Source: Streptomyces murinus (lineage in GTDB: Bacteria > Actinomycetota > Actinomycetes > Streptomycetales > Streptomycetaceae). From it: a stretch of 50,727 nt of DNA. The stretch covers positions 1 to 50,727 of the forward strand of contig NZ_MUNF01000072.1 of NCBI RefSeq assembly GCF_002154555.1, given 5' to 3'. Positions 2,079-47,142 of the stretch are shown here, one piece after another. Every line of letters starts with the position of its first letter. Position 1 is the stretch's first letter. Made by a program: the position numbers and the translations under genes. A model generated the notes under the pieces. That model had not been told where the DNA came from and made no database searches. It saw only the letters and a program-made list of their open reading frames with translations.

Positions 2079-3551
2079 TCACCGCCGGCGCACGACGCGT
2101 ACGGTCTTCAGACGCTGGTCGGCGGCGTCGGGGAGGAACATGCCGGCCGCGACTCCGGTGGTCAGATAGTCGAGGACGGGCTGGGTGAGGCGCTCGCCGG
2201 GCAGGACGACAGGGATGCCGGGCGGGTACGGGGTGATCATCTCGGCGGCGATCCTGCCGGCCGCCTCGTCCGTGGGCACCTTCTCGTGCCCGGTGAAGTA
2301 GGCGTCGCGTGGCAGTTGGGCCTGGTCCATCAGCAGGTCGGCGGGGGAGGGGACGGCGACGTGAGGGACGTCCCGCAGATCCGCGGCGTGGGCGGCCAGA
2401 TCGCGCAGGGCGGTGAGCAGGCGCCGGGCGGTCTCGGTGTCGTCCGCGTGGGTGAGCTGCGCGCTGATGCGGCGGTGGTCGAAGAGATGGGTGTCGATGT
2501 GATGGTGTTCGCGGAGCCAATCGGCCGCCCGGTATCCGCTCGTGCCCAGGTCGTGGATGTCCATGACGACCGGGAGAGGGTCGAAGTCGGCGGCGAGGCC
2601 AGGACCGCAGAAGTCGGCGGCGTCGTTCACGTGGATGCCGGCGATCGACTCGATCTCCGAGCGGACGCGGCCGGCCAGGTCGAGCGCGTGGCCGATGAGT
2701 TCGCGGCCGTGCTGGACCATCTGCCGGCGCCAGGCGTCGATCCCCGCGTAGAGCAGGGCGTTGGGGCTGGTCGTGCCGAGCAGGTCCGCGCGTGAGGCCA
2801 GTTCGGCGGGGTCGATGAGGTCGCCCTGGAGATGGAAGACGGACCCTTGTTCCAGGCCGCTGCCCATCTTGTGGATGCTGGTCACGCAGACGTCGGCGCC
2901 CGCGTCCATCGCCCAGGCCGGCAGCGCGTCGTGGAAGGGAAGGTGCGCACCCCATGCCTCGTCCACGATGAGTGGCTTGCCGCGGCGGTGGCAGACGTCG
3001 GCGATGTCCTGGAGCGCTGCCGCCGATCCGTAGGGGGTCGGGCTCGTGACAAGGGCTCCGTCGGCGTCGGGGCAGCGGGCGAAAGCCTCCTCGAAAGCGG
3101 CAGCGGAGGGCGGGTGGGCGATGTGCCGGCCGGCATCCCATCGGGGTTCCACCCAGACCGGTTCGACGCCCGAGAGGATCAGCCCGGCGACGACGGATTT
3201 GTGCGCGTCGCGCCCGACGAGGAGCCGGCTGCCCGGACAGGTCACCGTCAGCATGGCGGCCTTCACCGATAACGAGCTGCCGCAGGTCGAGAAGAACGTG
3301 TGCTCGGCATGCACGGCGTCGGCCATCAGCTGTTCCGCACGTTCCAGCACCCGGCTGCGGGCCAGCCGGTCATCCAGACCCCCGTTGGCCAGGACGTCAC
3401 CGTGGAAGACGGCGTCCCCCAGCACGGCACGCGCACGCGGGTCCGCGCCCCGCGCCTGCTTGTGACCCGGTGGTGTGAAGCCCAGCTCGTCGGCATCGTG
3501 ATACCGGGCGAGTGCGTCAAGGACAGGTGCTTCGTCGTGATTCGACCTCAT
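2079..3551 (-). CDS. Orn/Lys/Arg decarboxylase-family PLP enzyme
   Basis: A fold-type I PLP enzyme of 490 residues. Family features are the N-terminal FTPPGHKQ segment, TFFSTCGSSLSVKAAML for cofactor-phosphate binding, LIVDEAWGAHLPFH with the conserved Asp and His, and SIHKMGSGLEQGS carrying the Schiff-base lysine. The C-terminal part has ITPYPPGIPVVLPGE, typical of the short Gram-positive arginine/lysine decarboxylase group (about 480 residues). It should decarboxylate a basic amino acid to a polyamine precursor; which one cannot be read from sequence. I chose the ATG at 3551 because the homologous region begins there, although the open frame runs further upstream. It is divergent from the dehydrogenase gene. 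Confidence 0.85.
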   Translation of the reverse strand: MRSNHDEAPVLDALARYHDADELGFTPPGHKQARGADPRARAVLGDAVFHGDVLANGGLDDRLARSRVLERAEQLMADAVHAEHTFFSTCGSSLSVKAAMLTVTCPGSRLLVGRDAHKSVVAGLILSGVEPVWVEPRWDAGRHIAHPPSAAAFEEAFARCPDADGALVTSPTPYGSAAALQDIADVCHRRGKPLIVDEAWGAHLPFHDALPAWAMDAGADVCVTSIHKMGSGLEQGSVFHLQGDLIDPAELASRADLLGTTSPNALLYAGIDAWRRQMVQHGRELIGHALDLAGRVRSEIESIAGIHVNDAADFCGPGLAADFDPLPVVMDIHDLGTSGYRAADWLREHHHIDTHLFDHRRISAQLTHADDTETARRLLTALRDLAAHAADLRDVPHVAVPSPADLLMDQAQLPRDAYFTGHEKVPTDEAAGRIAAEMITPYPPGIPVVLPGERLTQPVLDYLTTGVAAGMFLPDAADQRLKTVRVVRRR

Positions 3552-3885
3552 ACCCGTGCGGTGTTCCCCCGACCCCGAGCGACATACCCTCCCTTTCGGC
3601 CGCACGAGTACGCGAGGGGCGGCCCGGAGGCTCGTCGGAGGGGCGGCTCGGAGACTCGCCGCCGGCCAGGGCGGACGGCCCCCCGCTGATCCAGAAGCCG
3701 GTCGAAGCGGCGCGGAAGAGCGGCGGGGGGCTGTCCCGGGCCGGAGCCTTCCGCACGGCACGAGCGAGGTCTCGGTCTTCCTGGCCCGTTTCGTCCGAAA
3801 CGCGGGTGGGGACCCGGCAGGGACGGCAGTGCCGGCTTGTCCGTCGTCCGGTGGGTAGGACCGCCGGAGAAGGAAGGGAGTGATC
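3552..3885. promoter_or_regulatory. divergent intergenic region between the decarboxylase and dehydrogenase genes
   Basis: About 330 bp separate the two divergent start codons and should contain both promoters. The only clear signal is a strong Shine-Dalgarno stretch, AAGGAAGGGAG, at about 3870-3880, just ahead of the ATG at 3886. The minus-strand frame stays open through the region but its composition is not protein-like. I see no convincing -35/-10 pair or operator. Confidence 0.4.
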
Positions 3886-5046
3886 ATGAAGGCCGCGGTA
3901 TACGAAGGACCGCGTACGGTGACGGTCAAGGACGTGCCGGACGCGAAGATCGAGCACCCCTGCGACATCCTCGTCAAGATCACGACCACCAACATCTGCG
4001 GTTCGGACCTGCACATGTACGAGGGGCGTACGTCGTTCGAGACGGGCCGGAGCCTCGGCCACGAGAACCTCGGCGAGGTGGTGGAGGTCGGCTCCGCCGT
4101 CAGCAAGGTGAAGGTCGGGGATTACGTCGTACTGCCGTTCAATATCGCCTGTGGATTCTGCAAGCAGTGTGAGAAGGGCCTGACCAACTACTGCCTGACC
4201 ATGCAGCCGGAACCCGCGCTCGCCGGAGCCGCCTACGGCTTCGCCGAGATGGGGCCCTACCAGGGCGGTCAGGCCGAGTACCTGCGGGTGCCCTACGGCG
4301 ACTTCAACGCCCTGCGGCTGGGCGAGGACGCGGTGGAGCGGCAGAAGGACTACGTGATGCTCGCCGACATCTTCCCGACGGGCTACCACGCCACCGAGAT
4401 GGCCGGTGTCGGCCCGGGAGACCAGACCATCGTCTACGGCGCCGGGCCCGTCGGTCTCATGGCCGCGTACTCGGCGATCCTCAAGGGAGCCGGAAGGGTG
4501 TGGGTGGCGGACCACCACCAGGACCGCCTTCGCAAGGCCGAGGAGATCGGTGCCATCGCGATCGACACGAGCAGTGAGGATCCGGCCGAGGTCGTCAAGG
4601 AGGCGACCCTCGGGCTCGGTGCCGACAACGGCTGCGAGTGCGTCGGATACCAGGCCCACGATTCCGGAGGTCACGAGGACGCCGCTCTCACGCTGAACGG
4701 GCTCATCGACAGTGTCCGCTTCACCGGGTCCCTGGGCGTGGTCGGGGTGTTCCTGCCCGAGGACCCGGGCGGCGCCAAGACGCAGGGCAAGCTGGAAGCC
4801 GAGGGCAAGATTCCCTTCGACTACGGCCTGATGTGGTTCAAGGGGCAGCACATGGGCACCGGCCAGGCGCCCGTGAAGCGGTACAACCGCGCCCTGCGCG
4901 ACCTGATCGCCGGCGGCCGGGCCGAACCCGGCTTCGTCGTCTCCCACGAACTTCCGCTGGACGAGGCGGCGTCGGCGTACGAGCACTTCGACAACCGGGA
5001 CGAGGGCTGGACCAAGGTGATCCTGCACCCCGACGGCCGGCGCTGA
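3886..5046 (+). CDS. zinc-dependent alcohol dehydrogenase, glutathione-independent formaldehyde dehydrogenase type
   Basis: A medium-chain dehydrogenase/reductase of 386 residues. Catalytic zinc ligands lie in ICGSDLHMYEGR and in GHENLGEVVEVG. A structural-zinc cysteine cluster follows (CGFCKQCEKGLTNYC). The Rossmann dinucleotide site is YGAGPVGLMAAYSA. Length and the LTLNGLIDSVRFTGSLGVVGVF segment resemble the formaldehyde-dismutase/glutathione-independent formaldehyde dehydrogenase branch, which oxidises formaldehyde or short aldehydes with NAD. The actual substrate is inferred. The ATG at 3886 sits six bases after a strong ribosome site; an in-frame GTG at 3880 overlaps that site and is less likely. 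Confidence 0.9.
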   Translation: MKAAVYEGPRTVTVKDVPDAKIEHPCDILVKITTTNICGSDLHMYEGRTSFETGRSLGHENLGEVVEVGSAVSKVKVGDYVVLPFNIACGFCKQCEKGLTNYCLTMQPEPALAGAAYGFAEMGPYQGGQAEYLRVPYGDFNALRLGEDAVERQKDYVMLADIFPTGYHATEMAGVGPGDQTIVYGAGPVGLMAAYSAILKGAGRVWVADHHQDRLRKAEEIGAIAIDTSSEDPAEVVKEATLGLGADNGCECVGYQAHDSGGHEDAALTLNGLIDSVRFTGSLGVVGVFLPEDPGGAKTQGKLEAEGKIPFDYGLMWFKGQHMGTGQAPVKRYNRALRDLIAGGRAEPGFVVSHELPLDEAASAYEHFDNRDEGWTKVILHPDGRR

Positions 5047-5049
5047 TCA

Positions 5050-5065
5050 GGTGGGAGGGCCCACC
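5050..5065 (+). terminator. short hairpin after the dehydrogenase gene
   Basis: GGTGGG and CCCACC form a perfect six-base-pair stem with a four-base loop, four bases after the dehydrogenase stop codon. No T-run follows. Streptomyces terminators often lack one, so this is a weak call. Confidence 0.35.
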
Positions 5066-5211
5066 GGTCGTAGACGACCTGCTACGCCGAGTGCGCCGTG
5101 CCGAAGAGCGGTCCAGGTGACTGTGCGGACACGCCGCGCCGCCGCGACGACGGGTCCGACGGACGATCGCCGAGGGCGGGGACTCGGCAGGAGAGCTGCG
5201 AAGGGCTGACC

Positions 5212-5718
5212 GTGCAACACGACGTACTCGGTATCTATCTGAACGACCATTTGGCCGGGGCCACGCTCGGCGCCGGCCTCGCGCGGCACCTGGCCCATCG
5301 TCACAGGCGTGGCACCCGCGCCTCCCTCCTGGAACGCATGGCCGACGAGATCGCCCAGGACCGGCGGACTCTCCTGACGATCATGGACGGGCTCGGCGTA
5401 CCCGCCCACCGCTACAAGGTGATCGCGGGGTGGACCGCGGAGCGGCTGCGCCGGCTGAAACCCAACGGCGTCCTGCGCCGGCACTCCGGCCTCGACACGG
5501 TCATGGAACTCGAGACCCTGCGCCTGGGGATCGAAGGGAAGTCCCTGCTCTGGCTCACCCTGCTCGCACTGGCTCCGCAACGGACCGAACTGGACGGGGC
5601 ACAGCTGCACGATCTGCTCGACCGCGCGCGCAACCAGCTTGACGTGGTGGAAGATCTGCGCCGTACGGCCGCAGCCGCCGTCTTCCACCCGGGCGCGCCG
5701 GGTGTACGACGGGTGTGA
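5212..5718 (+). CDS. helical hypothetical protein
   Basis: The 168-residue product is almost entirely predicted helix, begins with VQHDVLGIYLNDHLAGATLG and contains many Glu, Arg, His and Leu residues. The pattern (helix with NDHLAGAT, ERMADEIAQDRRTLLTIM, then GWTAERLRRLKPNG) suggests a small four-helix or ferritin-like bundle, but I do not recognise a named family with certainty. The GTG at 5212 is preferred because AAGGG lies seven bases upstream and the preceding in-frame codons read as non-coding. It follows the dehydrogenase gene by 165 bp on the same strand. No signal peptide or membrane segment is seen. Confidence 0.65.
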   Translation: MQHDVLGIYLNDHLAGATLGAGLARHLAHRHRRGTRASLLERMADEIAQDRRTLLTIMDGLGVPAHRYKVIAGWTAERLRRLKPNGVLRRHSGLDTVMELETLRLGIEGKSLLWLTLLALAPQRTELDGAQLHDLLDRARNQLDVVEDLRRTAAAAVFHPGAPGVRRV

Positions 5719-6074
5719 TCCTGGGTCAGACCTCCGAACCACTCGCGTACGTCGCAGGGGAAGGCGAGCGCTTGGCGCAAGCCCTCGGCCTGCACCACAC
5801 CGGCGAGAGGGCGGGCGAGCCCTGGGGGCGTCGTCTCGGCGGGCTTGAGCAGCTGGACCCTCATGTGTCGGTACGTGCGTTCGAGTGCCGCCTCGCGGAT
5901 CCCGGCGGCCCGCGCGGCGAGATCCGCCGACGGCAGGGCGGAGACGGTGCCGGTCGGCCGGGCCGCGCCGGACGGGTCCGCGAGGGCGAATACCGGTCCA
6001 GCACCCCGTGCAGTCCCACGATGAGACCCGTGCAGTCCCACGATGACAGTGGCGTCCGGACCGGTATCACTCAT
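5719..6074 (-). pseudogene. uncertain coding remnant containing a 22-bp duplication
   Basis: A minus-strand frame starting MSDTGPDATVIVGLHG has strong third-position G/C through about 5720, with helix-like stretches such as LAARAAGIREAALERTYRHM. It is unlike the neighbouring proteins and runs on antisense into the 5212-5718 gene. Near its start a 22-base unit is duplicated head to tail (about 6005-6048), which shifts frame between the VIVGLHG motif and the rest. The opening resembles the start of a universal stress protein, but the remainder does not. It may be a small unknown gene or a decayed one. Confidence 0.25.
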
Positions 6075-6134
6075 GGTCGTACTCCTGGACCACGTGGACG
6101 GAAACGCCGAACCAGCACCGGCGGTTGTCGTTGC

Positions 6135-6986
6135 TCAGCGGTGGTACGCGGATGACGCGATCTCGATGAAGGATCGGATCAACGGGTTGGTGTCACCCTC
6201 GTTCCACACCGCCACCACTCGGCTCCGCGGCATGTCGGTCAGCGGTACCACGGCCAGCTCCGTGGGCAGGTCGTGTCCGAGCGGGGCCAGGCCGACCGTG
6301 CCGTTCCACAGCACGGCTTGCAGGCATTCCTGGACGGTGCGCACGACCGGGCCCTCGCGCGGCCTGCCACCGTTCCAGTACGACTGCCAGATCGGGTCGG
6401 TGTCCTGCGGGAACTGGAACCAGCGGCGGTCGCTCAGCTCGGCGAGCAGCAGCCCGTCGCGGTCGGCCAGCGGATCGTCGGCGCGCAGGACCACACCGAC
6501 CGGATCGGTCCGCAGCGCACGCGCCGTCAGCGCCGTCACGTCGAACGGCGCCCGGGTGAGGGCGACATCGACCAGTCCGGCGCGCAGCCCGCACGTCGGG
6601 TCGGTCAGGTCCGTGTCGCGGACGCGGATGTCGATGCCGGGGTGGTGGCGGCTGAAGTCGGCGGCCAGCCTGGCCACTCCCGGGTCGGTGCCGTCGCCCA
6701 GGATGCCGATGGTGATGGTCGCGACGCCGGCCGCCGCGCTCACGCGTACCCGGACGCGGTCGGCATGGTCGAGCAGGGCCCGCGCCTCGTCGAGCAACAC
6801 CGTGCCCACCACAGTGAGCGTGACACCGGCGGGCGAGCGGACGAGGAGCAGGGCGCCGACGTCGGCCTCCAACTGCTTGATCGCCCGGCTCAGGGGCGGC
6901 TGGCTCATGTGCAGCCGGGTGGCGGCCCGGCCGAAGTGCAGTTCCTCGGCGACCGCCACGAAGTAGCGCAAGGTCCGTAGCTCCAC
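6135..6986 (-). CDS. LysR-family transcriptional regulator
   Basis: The 283-residue protein has an N-terminal winged helix-turn-helix of LysR type (residues 1-60: VELRTLRYFVAVAEELHF, then MSQPPLSRAIKQLEADVG). A two-lobed effector domain of periplasmic-binding-protein fold covers about residues 90-283. The GTG at 6986 is chosen because LysR proteins start directly at ELRxLRYF and no other start codon lies close. It is divergent from the cupin gene, with a dyad-symmetric site in between, so it probably controls the cupin gene and itself. The inducer is unknown. Confidence 0.9.
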   Translation of the reverse strand: MELRTLRYFVAVAEELHFGRAATRLHMSQPPLSRAIKQLEADVGALLLVRSPAGVTLTVVGTVLLDEARALLDHADRVRVRVSAAAGVATITIGILGDGTDPGVARLAADFSRHHPGIDIRVRDTDLTDPTCGLRAGLVDVALTRAPFDVTALTARALRTDPVGVVLRADDPLADRDGLLLAELSDRRWFQFPQDTDPIWQSYWNGGRPREGPVVRTVQECLQAVLWNGTVGLAPLGHDLPTELAVVPLTDMPRSRVVAVWNEGDTNPLIRSFIEIASSAYHR

Positions 6987-6993
6987 GCTGCGA

Positions 6994-7012
6994 CGATACC
7001 CGTGAGGTATCG
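6994..7012. promoter_or_regulatory. LysR-type operator (T-N11-A palindrome)
   Basis: CGATACC and GGTATCG form a perfect seven-base inverted repeat around a five-base centre. The inner T at 6997 and A at 7009 give the T-N11-A spacing of LysR boxes. It begins eight bases from the LysR start codon and 56 bases from the cupin start, the usual position for a shared regulatory site. The symmetry extends imperfectly outwards (TGCGACG on the left, GTCGCA on the right). Confidence 0.65.
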
Positions 7013-7067
7013 GCGTCGCAGGACAGGTCTTGGACAGCCCCGGGGGCTCGGCGGTGAACTCGTGGGC

Positions 7068-7562
7068 ATGACCGAAGAGGCGAAGAGCAGCGAGCCGCAG
7101 CCCAGCCCCGCCGTGTCGGTGACGGGGCCCGGCGACGGCGAGGTGATCGTCCTGGGCACCACGCGCATGCGGATCCTGGAGGACGGCAGCAGCACCGGGC
7201 ACCGCCTCGCGATCGCCGAGTCCGTCCTCGCCCCGCACACCCAGGGACCGCCGCAACACCGCCACGCCCGACACGACGAGGGCTTCTACGTCCTGTCGGG
7301 CACCGTGCGGTTCACCGTGGGGGACGAGGACTACGACGCCGGCGCGGGCACACTCGTGATGGTTCCGCCCGGCACCCCGCACACCTTCGCCAACCCGACC
7401 GACCAACCCGCCGTCATGCTCAGCACGTTCACCCCCGACCTGTACGTGCAGTACTTCCGGGACCTCCAGGCGGTACTCGCCTCCGGCCGCCCGCTGACGG
7501 CCCAGGCCAACATCGACGCGATGAGCCGCTACGCGACCGAGCCCGCCACCGACCTCAACTGA
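7068..7562 (+). CDS. cupin-domain protein, quercetinase-like
   Basis: The 164-residue protein has one cupin barrel. Motif 1 is seen as PPQHRHARHDEGFYVLSG and motif 2 as VPPGTPHTFANP, giving the His-x-His, Glu and His metal ligands. Relatives are small metal-binding cupins, including quercetin-2,3-dioxygenase-like and regulatory or isomerase cupins. The reaction cannot be assigned. The ATG at 7068 is used; codons upstream are Arg-rich and overlap the operator. Being divergent from a LysR gene suggests a substrate-inducible enzyme. Confidence 0.85.
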   Translation: MTEEAKSSEPQPSPAVSVTGPGDGEVIVLGTTRMRILEDGSSTGHRLAIAESVLAPHTQGPPQHRHARHDEGFYVLSGTVRFTVGDEDYDAGAGTLVMVPPGTPHTFANPTDQPAVMLSTFTPDLYVQYFRDLQAVLASGRPLTAQANIDAMSRYATEPATDLN

Positions 7563-35446: not shown

Positions 35447-37090
35447 TCAGTGCACGTCGACCCCGGTCCAGGCCGCCTCGACCGCCTTGTACTCGGCGCT
35501 GTCGGCGCCGTACAGGTCGGTCGCCGCGGACAGCGTGCCCTTGCGGGCGTCGGCGTAGTCGGTGGTCGACGTGAAGTACGTCGTCAGCGCCTTGTACCAG
35601 ATCTGGAGCGCCTTGTCCCGGCCGATACCGGTGACGGTCGAGCCGTCCTTGGTCGGCGAGTCGTAGTCGACCCCGTTGACGGTCTTCGCGCCGCTGCCCT
35701 CGGACAGCAGGTAGAAGAAGTGGTTGGCGACACCGGACGAGTAGTGGACGTCCTCGTCGCCGACGGACGAGGACCAGTAGTCGGCGGAACCGCCGTCCTT
35801 GCTGGGCTTGTCCATGTAGCGCAGCGGGGTGCCGTCGCCGTTGATGTCGATCTTCTCGCCGATGAGGTAGTCACCGGGGTCCGAGCTGTTGTTGGCGTAG
35901 AACTCCACGCCGGTGCCGAAGATGTCGGAGGTGGCCTCGTTCAGACCGCCCGACTCGCCCGAGTACTCGAGGCCCGCGGTGTTGGAGGTGACACCGTGGC
36001 TCATCTCGTGGCCGGCGACGTCCAGCGCGGTCAGCGGGTCGTTGTTCCCGGAGCCGTCGCCGTACGTCATGCAGAAGCAGCTGTCGTCCCAGAACGCGTT
36101 CACGTACGAGTCGCCGTAGTGGACACGGGAGTAGGCGCCCACACCGTCGTTCTTGATGCCGCTGCGCCCGAACGTGCTCTTGTAGAAGTCCCACGTCTCC
36201 TGCGCGCCATAGGCGGCGTCGGCCGCGGCGGTCGCGGCGTTCGACGTGGTTCCGTCGCCCCAGGTGTCGTTGTCCTGGGAGTACAACGTGCCGGTGCCGT
36301 CCTGCTGGTGGTCCAGGTTGTACGTCTTGTGGCCGCCGCGGGAGTCGTCGGTGAGGGTGTACGACGAGCCCGACTGCGCCGTCGTCAGGTCGACCTTGCC
36401 GCTGTACTGGGTGTTGCCGACGCCGGTCTCGATGCCCTGGTACTGGAAGAGCTTCTTGCCGGTGGCCGCGTCGGTGATGACGTGCAGCTGGTTCGGCGTG
36501 CCGTCGTCCTGGAAGCCGCCGATCACGGTCTCGTAGGCGAGGACGGGCTTCCCGCTCGCCGCCCAGACGACCTTGCGCGGAGCCCGGTCGACGGCGGGCT
36601 TCGCCGACCGGCCCTTCTGCGCCAGGCTCAGGGCCTGCTTCCGCGCGGTGGCCGCGGCGATCCGCGGGGTGAGCGAGGCGAGCTTCAGCGTGGCCTTCGA
36701 CGCTCTGGTCACGCCCTGCGTCCTGCCGGACTTCGAGGTGTGCACGATCAGGTCGCCGCCGAGCACCGGGAGGCCGGCGTAGGTGCGCTCGTACCGGGTG
36801 TGGACGGTGCCGTTGCCGTCCTTGACGACGTCCTTGACGACCAGCTTCTCCTGGCTGCCCAGGCCGAGGGCCCTGGCGGTCCCGGCGAGCTCGGCCTGCG
36901 CGTTCCGGATGAGACCGGTGTGGGCGGCGGCCGACAGGGCGACGGGCGCACCGGCCGGGCGGGCGGAGTCGGCGGTGGGCCGGGCGGCGGCCGAGGCGGT
37001 GAGCGAGGTGCTCAGCAGGGCGGCCGCGGCGGCGACGGCGGTGGCCACCGCGAGGGTCGTGCGCTGGTGACGTATGTTGCCGTGGGTCAT
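35447..37090 (-). CDS. M4-family (thermolysin-like) secreted metalloprotease
   Basis: The 547-residue preproprotein has a signal peptide (core about 14-28, ASA cleavage near 35) and an FTP/PepSY propeptide (about 50-200). The M4 catalytic unit follows. Zinc ligands are His361 and His365 in GHEMSHGVT and Glu385 in GGLNEATSD, 24 residues from the first His as in thermolysin. The later active-site His is expected in the GDEDVHYSSGVANHFFY segment, and the terminal helix is present. It should degrade extracellular protein in nutrient scavenging. Start at ATG 37090 after AAAGAGAAG. The PPC extension is absent. Confidence 0.92.
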   Translation of the reverse strand: MTHGNIRHQRTTLAVATAVAAAAALLSTSLTASAAARPTADSARPAGAPVALSAAAHTGLIRNAQAELAGTARALGLGSQEKLVVKDVVKDGNGTVHTRYERTYAGLPVLGGDLIVHTSKSGRTQGVTRASKATLKLASLTPRIAAATARKQALSLAQKGRSAKPAVDRAPRKVVWAASGKPVLAYETVIGGFQDDGTPNQLHVITDAATGKKLFQYQGIETGVGNTQYSGKVDLTTAQSGSSYTLTDDSRGGHKTYNLDHQQDGTGTLYSQDNDTWGDGTTSNAATAAADAAYGAQETWDFYKSTFGRSGIKNDGVGAYSRVHYGDSYVNAFWDDSCFCMTYGDGSGNNDPLTALDVAGHEMSHGVTSNTAGLEYSGESGGLNEATSDIFGTGVEFYANNSSDPGDYLIGEKIDINGDGTPLRYMDKPSKDGGSADYWSSSVGDEDVHYSSGVANHFFYLLSEGSGAKTVNGVDYDSPTKDGSTVTGIGRDKALQIWYKALTTYFTSTTDYADARKGTLSAATDLYGADSAEYKAVEAAWTGVDVH

Positions 37091-37462
37091 GCAGGCTTCT
37101 CTTTCCGTGGGGGGATTTCCCGGTCGGTGTGGGGCCGGCCGGTGTGAGCCACATGAAGGACACACCCCGGAATGGCAGGGGCATGCCAATGCAGAGCGAG
37201 GCTCTACGGTCTTTCAATTCCCTTCATCACGTGGGGGGTTGGCAGTGACATGCAGAGAAAACCCCAGCAACGACCGCTTGCGCCATACACGTGGGTCACA
37301 AGCGACAACAACCCCACGCCTCCTTCACAGGCGACGCACAGCCTGTTCCGCATGTGTACGCCGCGCGAATTCCCGCGAAGGCGCGGGCATCGCTCGCACG
37401 GTGGACGGGGCGGGCCGCCCGGCCGGTACCCGGTGCGCTCCCGGCCCGCCCCGAGCCCCGGT
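37091..37462. promoter_or_regulatory. upstream region of the M4 protease gene
   Basis: This 372-bp gap separates the protease from the MFS gene of the upstream operon. It is A/T-richer near 37195-37320 (for example GGTCTTTCAATTCCCTTCATC), as expected for a promoter. It probably also contains the end of the operon transcript, though I see no strong hairpin, so read-through into the protease gene cannot be excluded. Confidence 0.4.
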
Positions 37463-38836
37463 TCAGGCCCTCGGGGCGGCCCCCTCGTCGACGGGCAGCG
37501 CGACGGGTTCGTCGGCCGGGAGTGTCCGCGCCCGCCCGGAGCCCGCGTCCGCGCCGGTCGCCGTACCCGCCCCGCGCGTCCGTGCCGCCCGGTTCGCGCG
37601 GCGCAGCGCCAGATGGAGGGCCGGGATCAGGGCGCAGGTGACGGCGGCCGACTGCCAGAGCAGGGCGTCGAGCCGGCCCGCCGCCAGACAGGCGCCCGCG
37701 GCCACCGCGGCCAGGGCGCACACCCCGCGGTCCACGATGCTCTCCACCGACAGCAGGGTGGCACGCGGAGCGTCCTTCGGGATCGCGTCGTTGATGAGCT
37801 TGCGCTGCACCGGGTAGCAGAAGCCGGTGATCGCGGCGAACACGCAGAGCAGAGCGGCCACCGTCCACGGGCCGCCGACGGTGGTGCCCGCCAGCGTGGC
37901 CGCGAGCGCGACACTCAGCAGGGACACCCAGGCCGTGGGCGACAGCCGGGAGCCCAGCCACTGGGGCCGCGCGGCGGCGACCGCCTCGGCGACCGTCATC
38001 GCCGCGAGCACACTGCCGGTGCTGCCCTCGCCGATGCCATGGTGCAGCAGCACCGGCTGGAAGAGGTTGACCTGGCAGATCCGCGACAGCGTGAAGACGG
38101 CCACGCCCTGCACCATGAGCAGGGCGAGCCACGGCGAGGCCCGAAGGGCCCGCAGCGCGGCGCCGGTGTCGCGCAGCAGCGCCGCCTCGCGCCGCCCGGA
38201 GGCGCGGCTCGCCCCGCTCGCCTCGCGCGGAGCGAGCCGTGGCAGGGCGAGGGCGCAGCCGAGCGAGCCCGCCGCGCTCGCCGCGCTCAGTACGTACGGA
38301 GCCTGCGGCGCCAGCACCATCAGCGGTCCGACGAGCGGCCAGCAGACCACCTTCGCCGCGAGCCCCAGGGCCCGCGCCGTACCCTCCGCGCGGAGGTAGT
38401 GCGCGTCCGCCCCTTCCGCGCGCAGCCCGTCGTAGAGGCAGGCGCTGGCCGCGCCCGAGGTCAGGGAGCGCCCCGCGGCGATGGCCAGGAAGTGGAGGAG
38501 GAAGCCCGGGTAGGAGGGGGAGAACACCGGCATCAGGTTCGCCGCCGTCATGACCACCGCGCCCGCCCACAGGCAGTTGCGCGCGCCGATGCGGTCGGCG
38601 ACGAGTCCGGTCGGGATCTCGAAGAGGCAGAAGGCGATGTAGTAGACGCTCTGGATGCCGAAGATCTGGCCGTCGGACAGGCCCGCGTCACGCTGGTAGG
38701 CGTAGAAGACGGGCATCCACCACAGCAGATTGAACAGCAGCTGGAACCCGTTGTTGAGACGGATCACCCGGCGGGCCGCCGGGGTCAGGTCCTCGTGCGG
38801 AGCGCGGCGCCACGGCGCGGGCCCATGGCGCCTCAT
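37463..38836 (-). CDS. MFS transporter of the ATP-grasp/dikinase operon
   Basis: The 457-residue membrane protein has about 12 hydrophobic segments. It opens with RVIRLNNGFQLLFNLLWWMPVFYAYQRDAGL, then FEIPTGLVADRIGARN, which holds the conserved MFS loop G-x-x-A-D-R-x-G-x-R. The group is like the multidrug or siderophore efflux MFS family. Its ATG overlaps the stop of the dikinase-like gene (ATGA), so it is the third gene of a tight operon and likely exports its product. The C-terminal tail is polar and Ala/Asp-rich. Confidence 0.85.
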   Translation of the reverse strand: MRRHGPAPWRRAPHEDLTPAARRVIRLNNGFQLLFNLLWWMPVFYAYQRDAGLSDGQIFGIQSVYYIAFCLFEIPTGLVADRIGARNCLWAGAVVMTAANLMPVFSPSYPGFLLHFLAIAAGRSLTSGAASACLYDGLRAEGADAHYLRAEGTARALGLAAKVVCWPLVGPLMVLAPQAPYVLSAASAAGSLGCALALPRLAPREASGASRASGRREAALLRDTGAALRALRASPWLALLMVQGVAVFTLSRICQVNLFQPVLLHHGIGEGSTGSVLAAMTVAEAVAAARPQWLGSRLSPTAWVSLLSVALAATLAGTTVGGPWTVAALLCVFAAITGFCYPVQRKLINDAIPKDAPRATLLSVESIVDRGVCALAAVAAGACLAAGRLDALLWQSAAVTCALIPALHLALRRANRAARTRGAGTATGADAGSGRARTLPADEPVALPVDEGAAPRA

Positions 38837-40845
38837 CGGGCGTACGGGCGGACCTGGACCAGCTGGAACGCCCCCTCGCCGGTCATCAGCCACTCGATGT
38901 CCAGGGCGTCGTCCGGGTCGTCCGTGCTGAAGTGGGACTGCAACAGGCGCCCCGCCAGGGCAAGTTCGGCCAGCGCCTGCCTCGTGTCCGCCGGCAGGTC
39001 GGTGCCCGAGGATCCGACGGCGACCGTACGGCCACCGCCCTCGACCGTGTTGTACAGGTACTGGTGGGGCAGGACCGTGCCGTCCACCACGCGCTCGGGC
39101 GAACCGGCCGTGCAGTTGAGGTACACGTTCCGGAAGTCCTCCCGGCGCGTCGGGTTGCAGGTGACCAGCACGCCCCCGAGGTCGGCCGGCGTGTACTCCT
39201 GGACGATCACCCCCATGTAGGTGTCGTCCAGCGAGATGCCGACCTGGTGCCGCATCCGCACGCTCCGCGGCGACAGCAGCGACGCCCACACATGGATGAC
39301 GGCGTCCATCAGCTGCTCCGCGCCGCGTACCGTCGTCACCGAGTCGTAGATGCCCGCTGCCGAGAACCCCGGCAGATCCTCGGCGTTGGAGGAGGAACGC
39401 ACCACCAGACGGCGACCGTCGGCCAGCAGCCGCGGCACGGCTCCGGTGATGGCTCGCGCCACCTCCTCGGGCATCGGCGTGCTCCGCATCAGGTGCTGGA
39501 GATCCAGCGAGAGCGGGTCGATCAGGTCGAGCGCGTCGAGTTCGAGCGCCAACTTCAGCTTGCCGATACCCTGTTGGAGCGCCGGCGACGAGGTCAGATA
39601 GAGATGGTGCAGATGGAACGGCAGCGCCACGCCCCGCGGCGCCCGGACCGTTCGGGCCACGCGTTCGGCGGCCGTGAACCGGAGCCGTTCCAGGGGTGCT
39701 TCGGGCTCACCGAGCCGGGTGCCGAGATGAGCGAGCAGATCCGGCCGCGGCGGGCGCGGGCGGGCGTAGAAGGCGGTCAGGTCCGCGGTGCGGCTGTCCA
39801 GCACATGGTGCAGTTCGCCGAGGTGGGCGGCCTTGGTGCCGTAGCTGTCGCGGTCGGCGAGCCGCAGCCGGTGCAGTTCCATGATCGGCGCGTCCCCGGT
39901 GAGCGGCGCGCCGATATGGATGCGCTGGGTGTCCCAGACCGGCCGCTCCAACGCCGGGGCGCAGGACAGCGGTTCGAGGGTGACGGCGTCCTCCCGCACC
40001 CGGTAGCGGACCCAGGCGTCGTCCAGGCCGTGCCGCTCCACCAGGACGTCCAGGTCGCGGACGATCGCGTTCGGGATACCCCAGCCCGAGGCCAGCACGT
40101 TGGTGTGCGAAAGCGGTGTGGTGGGGCGGGTGTTGATGAAACCGGCCACCCGGGGCACGTCGTCGGGCAGGCCCGCCATGGCGACGATGTCCGCCCAGCC
40201 GAGGTCCGCGGCCCCTGCGCGGTACTCCTGCGGACTGCGGAAATACCGCAGACGTCCCTCCGCCACGCCCGGGTTGAGGCAGGTCCGGGTGCGGCTGCCG
40301 AACAGCTCCTGGCTCAGGATGCGCGGGATACGGGTGTCGCCGACCAGGGCCAGCTCATGCTCCTGGCCGTGGTTCGCCGGCTTCAGCAGCAACGGGAGGC
40401 GCCCGTCCACGCGATGGCGGACGTAGTCGTAGAACTCCTGGAGCAGGGCACCGTGCATGGTGTCCGCCTCCGTCGTCTCCAGGACGAGGAAGGGCCGTTC
40501 GGCGCCGTCGGCATCCTCGTCGCTGTGCAACGAGAGGATTCCCAGCAGGAAGCGGCGGTCGGGCGCCATGTACACCTGGGCGTTGAACGCGTCCAGCTCC
40601 GCGTCGAGTTGCCGCGGTGTCATGCCGAGGACGCGCGTGGCGATGTAGTCGACGTGGAAGGGGTGTACCCGGGTGTCGAGCAGATGCCAGGTGTCCTCGG
40701 CCCGGTCCACCACGACCTTCAGGTACGGGTGTCCGGCGAGCACGCCGGACAGCGTGCGGAACAGCGGCAGCGACAGATTGACGCCGACCACGGTACGGTC
40801 GCCCGCCGCATCGGCGGCGCGGGCCTCGTCCGGTGCGAACGTCAT
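38833..40845 (-). CDS. dikinase-like protein with PEP/pyruvate-synthase nucleotide domain
   Basis: The 670-residue protein ends in a complete PPDK_N/PEP-synthase nucleotide-binding domain (about 330-670). Its start is DSYGTKAAHLGEL, then VVRSSSNAEDLPG at 481-493, YMGVIVQEYTPAD, and IEWLMTGEGAFQLVQVRP. Ahead of it, residues 235-265 hold TTPLSHTNVLASGWGIPNA, which resembles the mobile phosphohistidine domain with candidate His247. Residues 1-230 are a novel N-terminal part. Histidine domain before nucleotide domain is the order of glucan, water dikinases, not of PEP synthase. No PEP-binding barrel follows. An ATP-dependent phosphotransfer to an unknown acceptor is inferred. Coupled by ATGA overlaps on both sides. 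Confidence 0.8.
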   Translation of the reverse strand: MTFAPDEARAADAAGDRTVVGVNLSLPLFRTLSGVLAGHPYLKVVVDRAEDTWHLLDTRVHPFHVDYIATRVLGMTPRQLDAELDAFNAQVYMAPDRRFLLGILSLHSDEDADGAERPFLVLETTEADTMHGALLQEFYDYVRHRVDGRLPLLLKPANHGQEHELALVGDTRIPRILSQELFGSRTRTCLNPGVAEGRLRYFRSPQEYRAGAADLGWADIVAMAGLPDDVPRVAGFINTRPTTPLSHTNVLASGWGIPNAIVRDLDVLVERHGLDDAWVRYRVREDAVTLEPLSCAPALERPVWDTQRIHIGAPLTGDAPIMELHRLRLADRDSYGTKAAHLGELHHVLDSRTADLTAFYARPRPPRPDLLAHLGTRLGEPEAPLERLRFTAAERVARTVRAPRGVALPFHLHHLYLTSSPALQQGIGKLKLALELDALDLIDPLSLDLQHLMRSTPMPEEVARAITGAVPRLLADGRRLVVRSSSNAEDLPGFSAAGIYDSVTTVRGAEQLMDAVIHVWASLLSPRSVRMRHQVGISLDDTYMGVIVQEYTPADLGGVLVTCNPTRREDFRNVYLNCTAGSPERVVDGTVLPHQYLYNTVEGGGRTVAVGSSGTDLPADTRQALAELALAGRLLQSHFSTDDPDDALDIEWLMTGEGAFQLVQVRPYAR

Positions 40846-42215
40846 GCGCGTGCCTCCTCGGCGGCGTCCACCGGCAGGAGGTCCGGCAGCGCGGCCACCA
40901 GGGCGGTGAAGTCGCGTACGACGGACTGCGGCCGGTCGGCCGACAGCAGACACAGCCCCGCCATGGTGTTGGCGCCGCCCGCGGGGTCGTAGACGGGGAC
41001 CGGCGAGCCGTCGGGGAGGGAACTCTCGCGGACCACGGACAGCGTGCTGCCGGCCCCGATCGGCGCCTTGCGGACCACCGTCGAGGAGTCCCACAGATGC
41101 CGCCGCGGCCACGGCGTGCCGTCGCCGTCGACCGCGAGCACCACCAGCGAGCCCGTCGCGCCCTCGGCGTCCGCGGGCGTCAGCGTCCGCGCGGGCCAGC
41201 CGGGCGAGCGGCCGAGCAGCTGATCGGTGAACATGCCGACCAGGTCGAGGCCGAAGACGTCCTCGATCTGCGGCACGGTCATCGCGCCCCCGAACCGGGC
41301 GGCCGTCTCGATGACCCACATACGGCCGTCCGCGCCCAGCTTGATCTCCGTGTGGGTGCCGCAGTTCTCCAGCCCCAGCGCGTCCACGGCCCGCCGGGCC
41401 AGCGCCACGATCCCGCGCTGGGCCCCGCTGCCGACGGCGGCCGGAGTGATCCCGGCGCGCTTGGTGAACGGCCACACCGTCGGCATGCGCCCGCTCAGAC
41501 AGACCGGCCGGAAATCGCCGTCGACGACGACGCCCTCGACGCTCACGTAGTCACCCCAGCCGGGCCCGTCGAACCACTCCTCGGCCCGCCCGGTGACGAT
41601 CTCCTCGACGATGAAGTCCTCCGACGCGCCCCGCACATGCATCTCGGCGAAGCCGAGGTGTGCCGACTCGGCCATGACCTGACGCGAACGGTGCCAGGCG
41701 TGCCGCGCCTGTTCCGGCCCGTCGATGATCTGGTGCGCGGTCGACCCCGCGCTCCACGCGGCCTTGAGTAATAAGGGGCATGACAATTCGCTGGTCGCCC
41801 GCTCCAGCTCGGCGAGCCCCGCGACAGGGCGGAAGCGGGGCTGCGGAACACCGTGACGGTCCCACGTGGCCCGCATCAGCCGCTTGTCGCGGGCGAGAGC
41901 GGCGGCCGCCCCGGCGCCCCTCAGGCCGAGCCGTCGGCACGCCTCGGCCACCGCGACCACCGCGTACTCCGAGAAGGTGAGGACGGCGTCCGCCCCCACC
42001 TCGCGGGCGCGGGTGGTGATCAGCTCGACGAGGTCCGCGTGCTCCGCCCGGGGAGGCGTCACCACCGAGGCGCACAGCCGCGCCGCGTCCTCGGCCACCC
42101 CCACGGGCAGCCCGCTCAGCGCCAGCAGGTGCACCGTGGCCCGCCCGGCCACCCGCGTCAGAGCATGACCCACCGGGGGCCCGCCCTTGGCATGCACGTA
42201 CAGCACCTGGCTCAC
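40842..42215 (-). CDS. ATP-grasp ligase
   Basis: The 457-residue protein is an ATP-grasp carboxylate-amine ligase of the type used in small-peptide and amide synthesis. Residues about 95-130 give VVAVAEACRRLGLRGAGAAAALARDKRLMRATWDRHGVPQPRF. LLKAAWSAGSTAHQI is the nucleotide lysine region, FIVEEIVTGRAEEWF the adenine-contact glutamates, and IKLGADGRMWVIETAARFGGAMTV the Mg-binding E-x-A-x-R-x-GG core. It should join a carboxylate to an amine through an acyl-phosphate. The GTG at 42215 is chosen, about ten bases after AAGGAG. First gene of the operon. Confidence 0.85.
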   Translation of the reverse strand: MSQVLYVHAKGGPPVGHALTRVAGRATVHLLALSGLPVGVAEDAARLCASVVTPPRAEHADLVELITTRAREVGADAVLTFSEYAVVAVAEACRRLGLRGAGAAAALARDKRLMRATWDRHGVPQPRFRPVAGLAELERATSELSCPLLLKAAWSAGSTAHQIIDGPEQARHAWHRSRQVMAESAHLGFAEMHVRGASEDFIVEEIVTGRAEEWFDGPGWGDYVSVEGVVVDGDFRPVCLSGRMPTVWPFTKRAGITPAAVGSGAQRGIVALARRAVDALGLENCGTHTEIKLGADGRMWVIETAARFGGAMTVPQIEDVFGLDLVGMFTDQLLGRSPGWPARTLTPADAEGATGSLVVLAVDGDGTPWPRRHLWDSSTVVRKAPIGAGSTLSVVRESSLPDGSPVPVYDPAGGANTMAGLCLLSADRPQSVVRDFTALVAALPDLLPVDAAEEARA

Positions 42216-42514
42216 GTAGACCCATCTCCTTCGATGTCGGGGCACTTGACGTCGGGAGCACTCACGCCCGCCGGTTCTCCCCCTTCAAGCGAACCAGTCC
42301 CAACTCACCCCCCGGCGGCCGCACCACGCGAACCATTCAGGCAAATGCCCTATCCCGCCGGGCGGTTGATGTCATGTGAAGGTGTTGTGATGCGCTAGCA
42401 CCCAGCTGGTGCAGAGCCTGAGAGCGCCCGGTTCTCCCGTGTTCCCGGGGTGCTACGGCTTACGCACGAGACGTCACCCAACGTCATGTCGTGCGGTATT
42501 CAAGGAGTGGGCCC
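42216..42514. promoter_or_regulatory. divergent control region between the ATP-grasp operon and the PAS-LuxR gene
   Basis: The 300-bp gap carries AAGGAG at 42502-42507 for the regulator gene and AAGGAGA near 42230 (minus strand) for the ATP-grasp gene. The central part (42325-42400) is relatively A/T-rich and contains GGTTGATGTCATGTGAAGG. A LuxR-type binding site is expected here, but I see no clean palindrome. Confidence 0.45.
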
Positions 42515-43555
42515 GTGGACGAGACGGAACGCAACGCACCTTCGGACGAAGCGGCCGGCCCGCCCGGCCGGAACCCCTTCGGAGCCCTCGCCGAACTCAC
42601 CCCGGCCGCCGCGTTCATGCGCGACGGCGCCGGCCGCCATGTGTGGGCCAACCACGCCTACGCCCACCTGTACGGGACGACACGCGACGCGGTGATCGGC
42701 CGCCATCTGTCCGACCTGGACGAACCCGCCAACGCCGGCCGCTTCCTCGCCATGGACCAACAGGTCCTGACCGACGGCAAGTCCATACGGCACGCCCTCA
42801 CCTACCGCCGCCCGGACGGAACTCCCGCCCACGCGGCGGGCTACCGGTTTCCCGTCCGCTGGGGCGCCGAACGCTGCGTCGCGGGTATCTACGTCGACGT
42901 CACCGACTACGTCCGGGCGATGGACCAACGGCACCGGGCCGAGGCCGACTTACGCGCACTGCGCGACCACAGCGGACTGGCCTGCGTCCGCCTCGCCCCG
43001 GACGGAAGGGTGAGCGAGGCCGGCACCGCCACGGCCGAGATCCTGCGCGTCCGCCTCTCCGATCTGACCGGAGTGCGGGCCGCCTCCCTTCTCGCCGACA
43101 CACCCGAACGCTGCGCCCTGCTACGACTCTGGGACGACCTGATCGCCGGCCGGCGCAGAAGCGCCCGCGCCTCGGCGGTACTCGTCGACGGGGAGGGATG
43201 GCAGCGCCGGGCCCGCATCCGGTTGACCACCGTCGGCGCGCCGGCGCCGGGCGTCACCGGCGTCTGGGCCGTCGTCACGCACTTGGGCCGACGCCAGCAG
43301 ACCCAGCCCACCCTGACCGCCGCCCAGATACGCATCGTCGCCCTGCTCGCGGCGGGCCGCAGCAACGCGGACATCGCCGAGGAACTGCGGCTGTCCCGGC
43401 AGACCCTGGACTACCACCTCAGCCGGCTCCGCGTCCTCCTCGAAGCGCCGACGCGCCCGGCGATGGTCGCCCGCGCCTACGTCCTCGGCCTCCTCTCCCC
43501 CCGCGCCTGGCCACCCCGCTCACCCACGGCGGCCCACCCCTCCAGCCCGGTGTGA
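42515..43555 (+). CDS. PAS-LuxR-type transcriptional regulator
   Basis: The 346-residue protein has a PAS/PAC module (about 25-140: LTPAAAFMRDGAGRHVWANHAYAHLYG, RRPDGTPAHAAGYRFPVRWG, VAGIYVDVTDYVRA), a second PAS-like region (about 150-255), and a C-terminal LuxR/GerE helix-turn-helix (LTAAQIRIVALLAAGRSNADIAEELRLSRQTLDYHLSRLRVLL). The DYHLSRLR variant of the recognition helix is like that in PAS-LuxR pathway regulators of polyenes. GTG start nine bases after AAGGAG. It is divergent from the ATP-grasp operon and probably controls it. Confidence 0.85.
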   Translation: MDETERNAPSDEAAGPPGRNPFGALAELTPAAAFMRDGAGRHVWANHAYAHLYGTTRDAVIGRHLSDLDEPANAGRFLAMDQQVLTDGKSIRHALTYRRPDGTPAHAAGYRFPVRWGAERCVAGIYVDVTDYVRAMDQRHRAEADLRALRDHSGLACVRLAPDGRVSEAGTATAEILRVRLSDLTGVRAASLLADTPERCALLRLWDDLIAGRRRSARASAVLVDGEGWQRRARIRLTTVGAPAPGVTGVWAVVTHLGRRQQTQPTLTAAQIRIVALLAAGRSNADIAEELRLSRQTLDYHLSRLRVLLEAPTRPAMVARAYVLGLLSPRAWPPRSPTAAHPSSPV

Positions 43556-44571: not shown

Positions 44572-47142
44572 GTGGCCGTCTCCATCGCCGGCCGCGGCGG
44601 CTGGTCCGACGAGACGTGGTCGTACCTGAACGATCCACGGATGCCGGCGATGGAACACGGCTGGAAACTGCATGTCTCGGCGCGTCCCGCCGACCTCGAC
44701 ACCGTGACCGCGCTCGTACTGCCGGTGCTGTCCCGGCACGTCTGCCATGCCAAGTTCGCCCGCGATCCGGACGTCCTGCGCCGCCTCAACTCCGGGGTGG
44801 TGAGCGCCGGAGCCGTCGGCAAGGCCATCACCGTCTACGCCCCGGCCGAGACGGTCGCCGAGATCGCCCGGGAACTCGCCGCCGTACTGCGCGACCGGGA
44901 GGGCCCGCGCGTCGTCAGCGACCGGCGGGTCGATCCGAGGGCACCGGTCTACTACCGCTACGGCCCCTTCACCGGCGACTACCGGACCGGCCGGAGCGGA
45001 CGGCTCGAATCCGTCATGACCGGCCCGGACGGCCGGATGTTCGACGGCCTGGCCGTCGGCCGCTACCGGTGCCCGCCCTGGGCCGAGGACCCCTTCGCGA
45101 GCGGCTCCGGACCCGGCGACGAACCGTCCGCACCCCACTTCGGCGGCGGCCGCTACACGGTCACCGCCGGCATCGCGCGATCGCCGCAGGGCAATGTCTA
45201 CCGCGCGGTCGACCGCGTCCTCGGGCAGCCGGTGGTGGTCAAACAGGCGAGGGCCTTCGTGGGCGAGGACGAGTCCGGCGCGGACGCCCGCCACCGGCTG
45301 CGCAACGAACGCGCGGTCCTCACCGCCCTCGACGGCGTCACGGGCGTGCCCCGCGCGCTGGACTACTTCGCTCACCGGTCGGACGAGTGCCTGGTGATGA
45401 GCGACTGCGGCGACCGGGACCTGCGCCGGGAGGTCCTGCGCGACGGCCCGTACCGTGACGACGGTTCGTACCGTGACGACGGCACCCGGCCGGAGCGCGC
45501 CCTGTCCGCCCTGGCCTCCCGGCTCCTGCGCATCTTGGACGCGATCCACGGCCGAAACGTGGTCGTGCGCGATCTCAAGCCCGACAACGTCGTGCTCGAC
45601 GCCTCCCGCCCCGGCCACTGCCACGTGATCGACTTCGGGATCAGCGAGCGGGACGGCACCGGTCCGGGCGGGGCGACCCCCGGGTACGGCGCGCCGGTTC
45701 TGCGGACGACCGGCCCGGCCGCCCCCGCCGACGACTACTACGCCCTCGGCGCGACCCTCTTCTTCGCCGCCACCGGCATGGACCCGGTGATCGTCGACAG
45801 CGACCACGCGGTCAACCGGGACCGGACCCTGGCCTGCCTGGCATGGGCACTGCCCGGGTCCGCCCACCGGGAGATCCGGTCGCGGATATCCGGCCTCCTG
45901 AGCTTCGACCCGGCCGAACGGACCGCCACCGCCGACCGCCTGCGCACCGGCACCGCCGGGACCACACTCCGGCCCGCACGGCCCCGGATCGACGACGACC
46001 TGCTGGACGAGATCATCGAGTACACCACCGCGTTCTGCGTCGGTGAGGCGAGCGCGATCGTGGACCCGGAACGGGCCGCCCGACGGAACGTCCCCACCTC
46101 GATCGACGTCTACGGCGGCAGCTCGGGAATCGGACTGGAACTCCTCCACCACCTGCACCGGCCCCGCGTACGCTCGACCGTCACCGCGCTGGCACGGTGG
46201 ACCGCGGAACAGTCGAGGAACCTCCCACCCGGCTTCTACACCGGGCGCACGGGCGTCGAACTCTTCCTGACCCAGGCCCAGGTGACAGCAGGAGAGGCGG
46301 GGACGTACGAAGACCCGCTGCCCGGGCAACCCGCCCTGCCGGGCCGCGCACCGGACGGCGGACCGCCCGAGGCGGACCTGATCGCGGGCGCCGCCGGGAT
46401 CGGCCTCGGCCGACTGCTGCTGGCCGGCCTCGCCCTCCGGTCCGGTCACCGGCACGCCGCACACCGGCACCTCGCCGTCGCCGCCGACTGCGACCGGATG
46501 CTGGCCTCGGGCACCGCCCGGCTGACCCCGGGCGGCACGGACACGGCAGGCAGCGCCGCGCTGCGCGAGGGCATCGCCCACGGCAAGGCGGGCGTGGCCT
46601 GTTTCCTCCTCGAATACGGCGGCGTGACCGGGGACATGGACGCGATCAGCCGCTCCGAGCAGGCCGGCGCACACCTGGCCGCCGTGACACCGGACATCAT
46701 CGCGGCGGCCACCGGGCCAGGGGCGACACGCCGCTACGGCTCGTGGTGCCGGGGCCTGGCAGGCATCGGGACCGTACTCGTCCGGGCCGCCGAACGCCTC
46801 GACGAACCCGGACACCTCGACCTGGCCCGACGGTCCGCGCGCGCCTGCGCCGCACTGGCACCGAGAATGCCGCTCGTCACGCAGTGCTGCGGGCTGGCCG
46901 GGGTGGGCGAGCTGATGGTGGATGTCGCGGAGGCGTCCGGGTCCGAGGAGTTCTGGGACGCGGCCGAGACCACCGCCCTGCTCATCCTGGGCCGCAGCGG
47001 CGGCACCTGGTCCCGGCCCATGTTCCCGGACACCGGGCTCACCGGGCCGAGCGCCACCTGGGCCGGCGGCTCCGCGGGCGTCCTGGCCTTCTTCAGACGC
47101 CTCCGCGCCCGGGGCGGCCCACGGCTCGGCCGAGTCACCTGA
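44572..47142 (+). CDS. class IV lanthipeptide synthetase (LanL-type)
   Basis: The 856-residue protein has the three domains of LanL. A phosphoSer/Thr lyase domain (about 1-190) shows HGWKLHVSARP near residue 28, HVCHAKF and VYYRYGPF. A Ser/Thr-kinase domain (about 190-480) shows VVVKQAR, VVRDLKPDN and DFGIS. A LanC-like cyclase domain (about 500-856) shows SWCRGLAG with Cys726 and TQCCGLAGVGE with Cys772 and Cys773. It phosphorylates, eliminates and cyclises the precursor encoded immediately upstream. The second zinc-motif position normally is Cys-His; here it is Cys-Cys. GTG start two bases after the precursor stop. Confidence 0.88.
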   Translation: MAVSIAGRGGWSDETWSYLNDPRMPAMEHGWKLHVSARPADLDTVTALVLPVLSRHVCHAKFARDPDVLRRLNSGVVSAGAVGKAITVYAPAETVAEIARELAAVLRDREGPRVVSDRRVDPRAPVYYRYGPFTGDYRTGRSGRLESVMTGPDGRMFDGLAVGRYRCPPWAEDPFASGSGPGDEPSAPHFGGGRYTVTAGIARSPQGNVYRAVDRVLGQPVVVKQARAFVGEDESGADARHRLRNERAVLTALDGVTGVPRALDYFAHRSDECLVMSDCGDRDLRREVLRDGPYRDDGSYRDDGTRPERALSALASRLLRILDAIHGRNVVVRDLKPDNVVLDASRPGHCHVIDFGISERDGTGPGGATPGYGAPVLRTTGPAAPADDYYALGATLFFAATGMDPVIVDSDHAVNRDRTLACLAWALPGSAHREIRSRISGLLSFDPAERTATADRLRTGTAGTTLRPARPRIDDDLLDEIIEYTTAFCVGEASAIVDPERAARRNVPTSIDVYGGSSGIGLELLHHLHRPRVRSTVTALARWTAEQSRNLPPGFYTGRTGVELFLTQAQVTAGEAGTYEDPLPGQPALPGRAPDGGPPEADLIAGAAGIGLGRLLLAGLALRSGHRHAAHRHLAVAADCDRMLASGTARLTPGGTDTAGSAALREGIAHGKAGVACFLLEYGGVTGDMDAISRSEQAGAHLAAVTPDIIAAATGPGATRRYGSWCRGLAGIGTVLVRAAERLDEPGHLDLARRSARACAALAPRMPLVTQCCGLAGVGELMVDVAEASGSEEFWDAAETTALLILGRSGGTWSRPMFPDTGLTGPSATWAGGSAGVLAFFRRLRARGGPRLGRVT
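45449..45482. repeat. 18-bp in-frame duplication inside the LanL gene
   Basis: CGTACCGTGACGACGG occurs twice 18 bases apart, giving PYRDDGSYRDDG in the kinase domain between the hinge region and the catalytic-loop helix. It is in frame and likely only lengthens a surface loop. Confidence 0.6.

Follow-up and report, generated by a model that had tools for sequence, protein, structure and literature searches.

A stand-alone Streptomyces operon that probably makes a sugarless N-phosphodipeptide inhibitor of metalloproteases, a likely sister to the phosphoramidon pathway

Layout of the operon and its operator

We analysed a 50,727-nucleotide stretch of Streptomyces murinus DNA (contig NZ_MUNF01000072.1; hereafter the window), which carries a compact minus-strand operon for a ligase, a kinase, and a transporter, faced by a divergent regulator gene. 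The first gene of the operon (42215-40842) encodes a BacD-like ATP-grasp L-amino acid ligase, likely a dipeptide ligase, recognised by its matches to NCBIfam BacD and to PDB 3wo1. The second (40845-38833) encodes a 670-residue dikinase-like kinase, characterised here through Pfam PPDK_N, AlphaFold models, and invariant alignment columns, and the third (38836-37463) encodes a major facilitator superfamily (MFS) transporter (Pfam MFS_1, E 1.1e-14), presumed to be an exporter. The ligase gene ends at 40842 with the kinase ATG at 40845, and the kinase stop ends at 38833 with the MFS ATG at 38836, giving an ATGA overlap at both junctions. The PAS-LuxR regulator gene (Pfam PAS_4 and GerE) occupies 42491-43555 on the plus strand. 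A sequence-only reading made before this analysis had described the same overlaps and the divergent regulator, and the open reading frames (ORFs), their frames, and the Pfam PAS and LuxR helix-turn-helix domains confirmed them; the interval that it assigned to the system, 38833-42215, contains the ligase and kinase genes and leaves the MFS gene just outside. Across 45 other loci and the window, with starts chosen automatically, the overlap measured exactly 4 bases in 39 of 46 ligase-kinase junctions and in 39 of 46 kinase-MFS junctions.

A conserved palindromic operator, GGCATTTGCCTGA, lies at 42337-42349 (minus strand) between the regulator and ligase genes, and we presume that it is the site of the PAS-LuxR regulator. 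In relatives the full palindrome reads TCAGGCAWWTGCCTGA. Counting the window and those of the loci L080-L149 in which the ligase exceeds 400 residues and the gap measures 20-800 bases (n = 67), the core GGCAWWTGCC was exact in 53 intergenic regions, compared to a mean of 0.12 in mononucleotide shuffles, and 11 of the 14 regions lacking an exact core were one base off GGCAWWTGCCTGA. The operator of the window is the single match in the 7.95 million bases of the genome, and no match elsewhere was found in 81 loci. It was also not found upstream of the kinase in the ten loci of a glycosyltransferase-bearing group described below (0/10); both in that group and in a 58%-identity group the LuxR gene is elsewhere or undetected. 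A scan for sigma-70 promoters returned nothing.

The ligase ORF has a second possible in-frame start upstream, at 42245. Numbered from this start, the ligase contains two TTA codons (158 and 159), and the regulator of the window contains one (154); 24 of 94 ligases also contain TTA codons, as do 29 of 83 regulators. Such codons are common under bldA control.

A BacD-like ligase and a dikinase relative with swapped domains

The nearest characterised protein to the ligase is the dipeptide ligase BacD, which it matched in the PDB (3wo1) with E 2.5e-50 by sequence and E 6.7e-73 by profile. Against the NCBIfam BacD model the ligase scored 179.2 bits (E 9.9e-53), under the equivalog cut-off of 850, and we rejected its assignment as an alanine-anticapsin ligase in the strict sense. 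The ATP-grasp core is shared with BacD and the matching columns E300, E313, and R317, which we take to be active-site residues, are invariant in the family (94/94 sequences). The proposal that the ATP-grasp protein is a ligase making dipeptides is thus supported, and it did not turn out to be a known non-peptide ligase. One pocket position differs from BacD. The residue is Ala in the 3wo1 sequence and Trp in the other two BacD sequences (presumably Trp332, which we take to limit the N-terminal residue); in the operon ligases that accompany a transporter it is Ala in 69 of 84 and Val in 15 of 84, the window having Ala, and in the glycosyltransferase-type ligases it is Leu in 10 of 10. The alignment excluded L081, which is a fragment, and L096, L097, and L099, in which the choice of start was unsound. 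If the pocket Trp does limit the N-terminal residue, these ligases would probably accept a bulky one in first place.

Pfam detected in the kinase only PPDK_N (PF01326; residues 399-668, E 7.6e-37; score 127.7 bits, cut-off 27) and listed no model over residues 184-294. We used AlphaFold models of the whole protein (26 sequences, predicted local distance difference test score 73.9) and of residues 1-310 (34 sequences, score 86.4) to look at the remaining regions. In structural alignment with VIA-align, the predicted model of residues 317-670 superimposed on residues 1-315 of the rifampin phosphotransferase RPH-Lm (5hv1/5fbt) with Z 23.4 and a root-mean-square deviation of 2.5 over 249 aligned residues. 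Predicted residues 184-294 superimposed on RPH-Lm 754-867, which we take to be its phosphohistidine domain, with Z 11.5 and a deviation of 2.3 over 99 residues, and also aligned with the corresponding domain of enzyme I, as well as with a pyruvate kinase C-terminal domain. His247 is placed by the model at the start of a helix, within a PLSH motif invariant in 98 of 98 sequences, and the ATP-domain columns K338, R483, E651, and R666 are equally invariant (98/98). Since the phosphohistidine fold precedes the ATP fold in the models, the kinase appears to hold the parts of a phosphohistidine dikinase in swapped order, with the His domain first and the ATP domain last, the reverse of RPH-Lm. This arrangement is shared by the glucan water dikinase of plants. 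Residues 1-183 contain many invariant columns, and our guess is that they form the substrate domain. When residues 1-395 were searched as a profile, no PDB sequence matched at E 10, and a search of 345 genomes of the class gave six matches at E 1e-4, all in Streptomyces.

With both an ATP domain and a swivelling His domain, the kinase belongs to the superfamily of PPDK, phosphoenolpyruvate (PEP) synthase, and RPH. We nevertheless consider it very improbable that the protein serves in resistance or housekeeping, as an antibiotic phosphotransferase or a PEP synthase lying beside the ligase by chance. PPDK_N is common to the kinase, Rph, and PEP synthase, but the protein fell far short of the cut-offs of all 15 NCBIfam models that it matched. 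An ordinary PEP synthase, the identity that the sequence-only reading had named as fatal to its proposal, was rejected at 102.8 bits against 883 with a match to the ATP domain only, and the profile comparison with rifampin-phosphotransferase-like enzymes led to the rejection of rifamycin phosphotransferase Rph, at 102.1 bits against 999 and with the domain order reversed. Pfam lists no PEP-binding domain, and the ligase was found in 46 of 46 kinase genomes.

The dikinase-like protein could alternatively be a ligase that activates an acid via phosphohistidine, giving a final product without phosphate. The prodigiosin ligases PigC and RedH are thought to activate their acid through phosphohistidine. 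Their NCBIfam models do match the ATP domain of the kinase weakly (PigC, 8.5e-17; RedH, 3.7e-21), but these matches span part of that domain only and are weaker than those of the best PEP synthase and Rph models, and the operon already has a separate amide ligase. We consider this improbable, and regard the protein as a kinase that would act on the product of the neighbouring ligase.

Distribution, sister lineage, and candidate product

To describe the spread of the gene set, we searched genomes at the level of genus, family, and phylum. The genus-level search (E <= 1e-30) found the dikinase in 46 of 392 genomes, in one of them in two pieces, and the ligase was present in all 46, in one only as a fragment; because the dikinase recurs in this manner, always with the ligase, the genes are not a chance set of ORFs. 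At the family level the dikinase was found in 26 of 200 genomes, spread over 4 of 17 genera, and at the phylum level the whole dikinase-like protein was found in 3 of 396 genomes, all of them Streptomyces (E <= 1e-40). The ligase, dikinase, and MFS genes were each matched in 80 of 80 named loci, with the LuxR gene upstream and divergent in 72, at another position in 6, and undetected in 2. Among named organisms, Streptomyces griseofuscus has the kinase most similar to that of the window (99% identity). Two linear plasmids also carry the operon unit, the kinase being named there by RefSeq only as "PEP/pyruvate-binding domain-containing protein". No further real neighbour was common to more than 18 of 46 loci by crude gene calling, a procedure that missed the kinase itself in 10 of the 46. 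Given their linkage across loci and their occurrence on two linear plasmids, the four genes appear to form a complete unit that can move. In L051/L081 (S. malaysiense), L049 (genome G194), and L147 (S. nigrescens), genes of the operon are interrupted, truncated, or unusually long, and these irregularities, which include a ligase fragment and split kinase frames, represent either decay or assembly error.

A sister genus of the family carries a second version of the gene set. Twelve of its genomes bear the kinase; two (L178 and L179) have the transporter type, and the other ten have a dikinase 44-48% identical to that of the window. In all ten loci the dikinase is followed by the ligase (44-45% identity) and then by a glycosyltransferase, with gaps of 14 and 24 bases between the three genes in L188. 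In the kinase tree, whose splits were read unrooted, the ten kinases are set apart by a single split (support 1.0). Their glycosyltransferase is EryCIII-like, with CalG3 as the best PDB match (1.4e-84) and a "Rhamnosyltransferase", 9ke2, at 2.1e-73. At L187, three stretches within 2522-7356, beside the kinase-ligase pair, match the glycosyltransferase query. The gene was not found in 131 other loci searched, some of which are one genome under two names, nor in the window (best E 0.43), nor in the window's genome at E 1e-20 in a search without positive control. Conversely, the MFS gene was matched in none of the ten glycosyltransferase-type loci.

These sister loci follow the logic of phosphoramidon, since its assembly needs a ligase, a kinase, and a deoxysugar transferase. 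Baulig et al. 2019 reportedly described the N-P-bond-forming kinase of phosphoramidon biosynthesis, and the tal cluster is said to be that of phosphoramidon/talopeptin; we take TalE to be the kinase and TalC the glycosyltransferase. Phosphoramidon/talopeptin is a dipeptide with an N-terminal phosphate, and the sister loci share with tal the kinase, the ligase, and a glycosyltransferase of deoxysugar type, whereas the window has no such glycosyltransferase and has MFS and PAS-LuxR genes instead. That 2019 paper is cited in PMC9961378 and PMC12305651.

A sugarless compound of the kind that the window's gene set predicts has been described. In the review PMC6429109, FMPI is given as phosphophenylalanylarginine from Streptomyces rishiriensis, a metalloprotease inhibitor with a half-maximal inhibitory concentration in the nM range; the reference list of the review, in an entry from 1982, gives the strain as NK-122. 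The genome of S. rishiriensis NBRC 13407 (L111) contains all four genes at full length together with the operator, a match that we regard as modest but pointed given the base rate of 46 in 392 genomes. No report of FMPI genes was found in the open-licence literature searched. The ligase of the window may choose residues other than Phe and Arg.

The reading that we favour, and judge to be likely, is that the locus is a stand-alone operon for a sugarless, FMPI-type N-phosphodipeptide metalloprotease inhibitor, a sister of the phosphoramidon pathway. The suggestion that the operon may make and export an N- or O-phosphorylated dipeptide gains support, still as a deduction from genes, from the BacD-like ligase, the glycosyltransferase-bearing relatives, and the occurrence of the gene set in S. 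rishiriensis, the species that makes FMPI. In the proposed pathway, the ligase would join two L-amino acids, probably with the bulky residue first. As fold and family suggest, the ATP domain of the kinase would then phosphorylate His247, and the swivelling domain would carry the phosphate to the dipeptide held on the N-terminal domain. The acceptor would be the alpha-amine of the dipeptide, with AMP and phosphate as by-products. The MFS protein would export the product, and the PAS-LuxR protein would control the operon by binding the observed site, TCAGGCAWWTGCCTGA.

An O-phosphodipeptide or a phosphoguanidine would result if the kinase acted instead on a side-chain hydroxyl (Ser, Thr, or Tyr) or on the guanidine of Arg. 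The enzyme with the nearest fold, rifampin phosphotransferase, acts on a hydroxyl, and phenylphosphoamidate synthase takes aniline and phenol alike according to PMC7500099. The alpha-amine is favoured both by the resemblance of the sister loci to a phosphoramidon gene set and by the link to the FMPI species, and we consider the hydroxyl or guanidine acceptor unlikely. Formation of P-N bonds by dikinase relatives has precedent, assumed in one paper and with the product not directly seen in another. In PMC4530439, PhtL of phaseolotoxin biosynthesis is PPDK/PEP-synthase-like and clustered with two ATP-grasp peptide ligases, and the authors assume that PhtL and its homologs AgnD1 and AgnD2 (agrocin 84) make N-P bonds; the likeness to the operon kinase is one of description, the products and the bacteria being different. 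The second precedent is phenylphosphoamidate synthase, a dikinase-family enzyme whose P-N product was not directly seen in that paper (PMC7500099).

Several observations weigh against an FMPI-type product. The putative kinship of the kinase to TalE is suggested by gene context, and the FMPI strain NK-122 differs from the sequenced NBRC 13407. Residues 1-183 of the kinase gave no convincing fold match in the structure lists, families outside those lists being possible, and no operator was found ahead of the ligase in the 58%-identity group (0/14). In addition, BacD-like ligases (44-46% identity) occur without the kinase in 3 of 392 genomes (G068, G077, and G166), with a second copy in a fourth (G048), and these paralogs sit in other gene sets. 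They were rejected as phosphoramidon clusters with another kinase, the kinase and glycosyltransferase queries having no match there. Four such loci, L193-L196, hold paralogs at 43-46%. Judging from names guessed from sequence starts, L195 and L196 hold asparagine-synthetase-like and MFS genes, and L193 and L194 hold cysteine-synthase-like genes, accompanied in L193 by a dioxygenase-like gene.

Neighbouring genes and meaning of the operon

Phosphoramidon inhibits thermolysin-family M4 metallopeptidases, and a gene for such an enzyme adjoins the operon in the window at 35447-37189 on the minus strand (Pfam Peptidase_M4, E 1.6e-48; Peptidase_M4_C, E 3.6e-55). The gap between the MFS and M4 genes contains one terminator-like site, compared to 0.9 expected by chance. 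Among the named loci, an M4 gene was found near the operon in 12 of 80 against about 1.1 expected, an expectation calculated from the total of 250 M4 matches that 44 of the 46 kinase genomes gave, with 8.7 million bases assumed per genome. Nine of these 12 loci belong together with the window to a single group of 23 sequences (support 0.77); in the remaining 13 of that group, M4 genes are missing from the neighbourhood or represented by a distant fragment. Of the nine M4 genes, the eight that were compared are orthologs, 77-97% identical to that of the window and in three arrangements, and the ninth (L097) is a contig-end fragment. An independent paralog (51%) is present in L131 and L134, and L094 has an unclassified M4 fragment 12 kb away. 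Counted as origins there are two, plus the unclassified fragment, against about 1.1 expected, a further point that weighs against the pathway proposed above. Because most of the M4 loci fall in one group, with few independent origins, we grade the link as suggestive only; the M4 peptidase may be the target of the product or may confer self-resistance.

By tblastn, 30 of 80 named loci, all in one group of 36, encode convergently downstream of the operon a protein that looks secreted and has a DLGET motif, which we take to be HAD-like. In most of them the distance to the kinase start is about 4 kb (an example of the gene is L035:5546-6295, plus strand), and the protein had no Pfam or NCBIfam match. 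In the window, a class IV lanthionine synthetase gene, LanL, occupies 44572-47142 on the plus strand (NCBIfam, 904 bits against a cut-off of 650).

P-N bonds are rare in natural products, and few enzymes are known to form them. In a broader proposal, which seems to us as likely to be right as wrong, the swapped-order kinase family forms P-N bonds on peptide N-termini, and its sugarless branch, present in about 12% of the sampled Streptomyces genomes and on linear plasmids as well, corresponds to the FMPI pathway. This branch would then be a widespread module for thermolysin inhibitors that has a PAS-LuxR operator of its own and is linked in some lineages to an M4 target or self-resistance copy. 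The operon may be the missing gene set for the inhibitor described in 1982, which would make that gene set testable and explain a family that RefSeq names generically. It would also provide a rule for genome mining, in which a BacD-like ligase with a swapped-order dikinase points to a phosphoramidon-like product if a glycosyltransferase is present and to an FMPI-like product if it is not.

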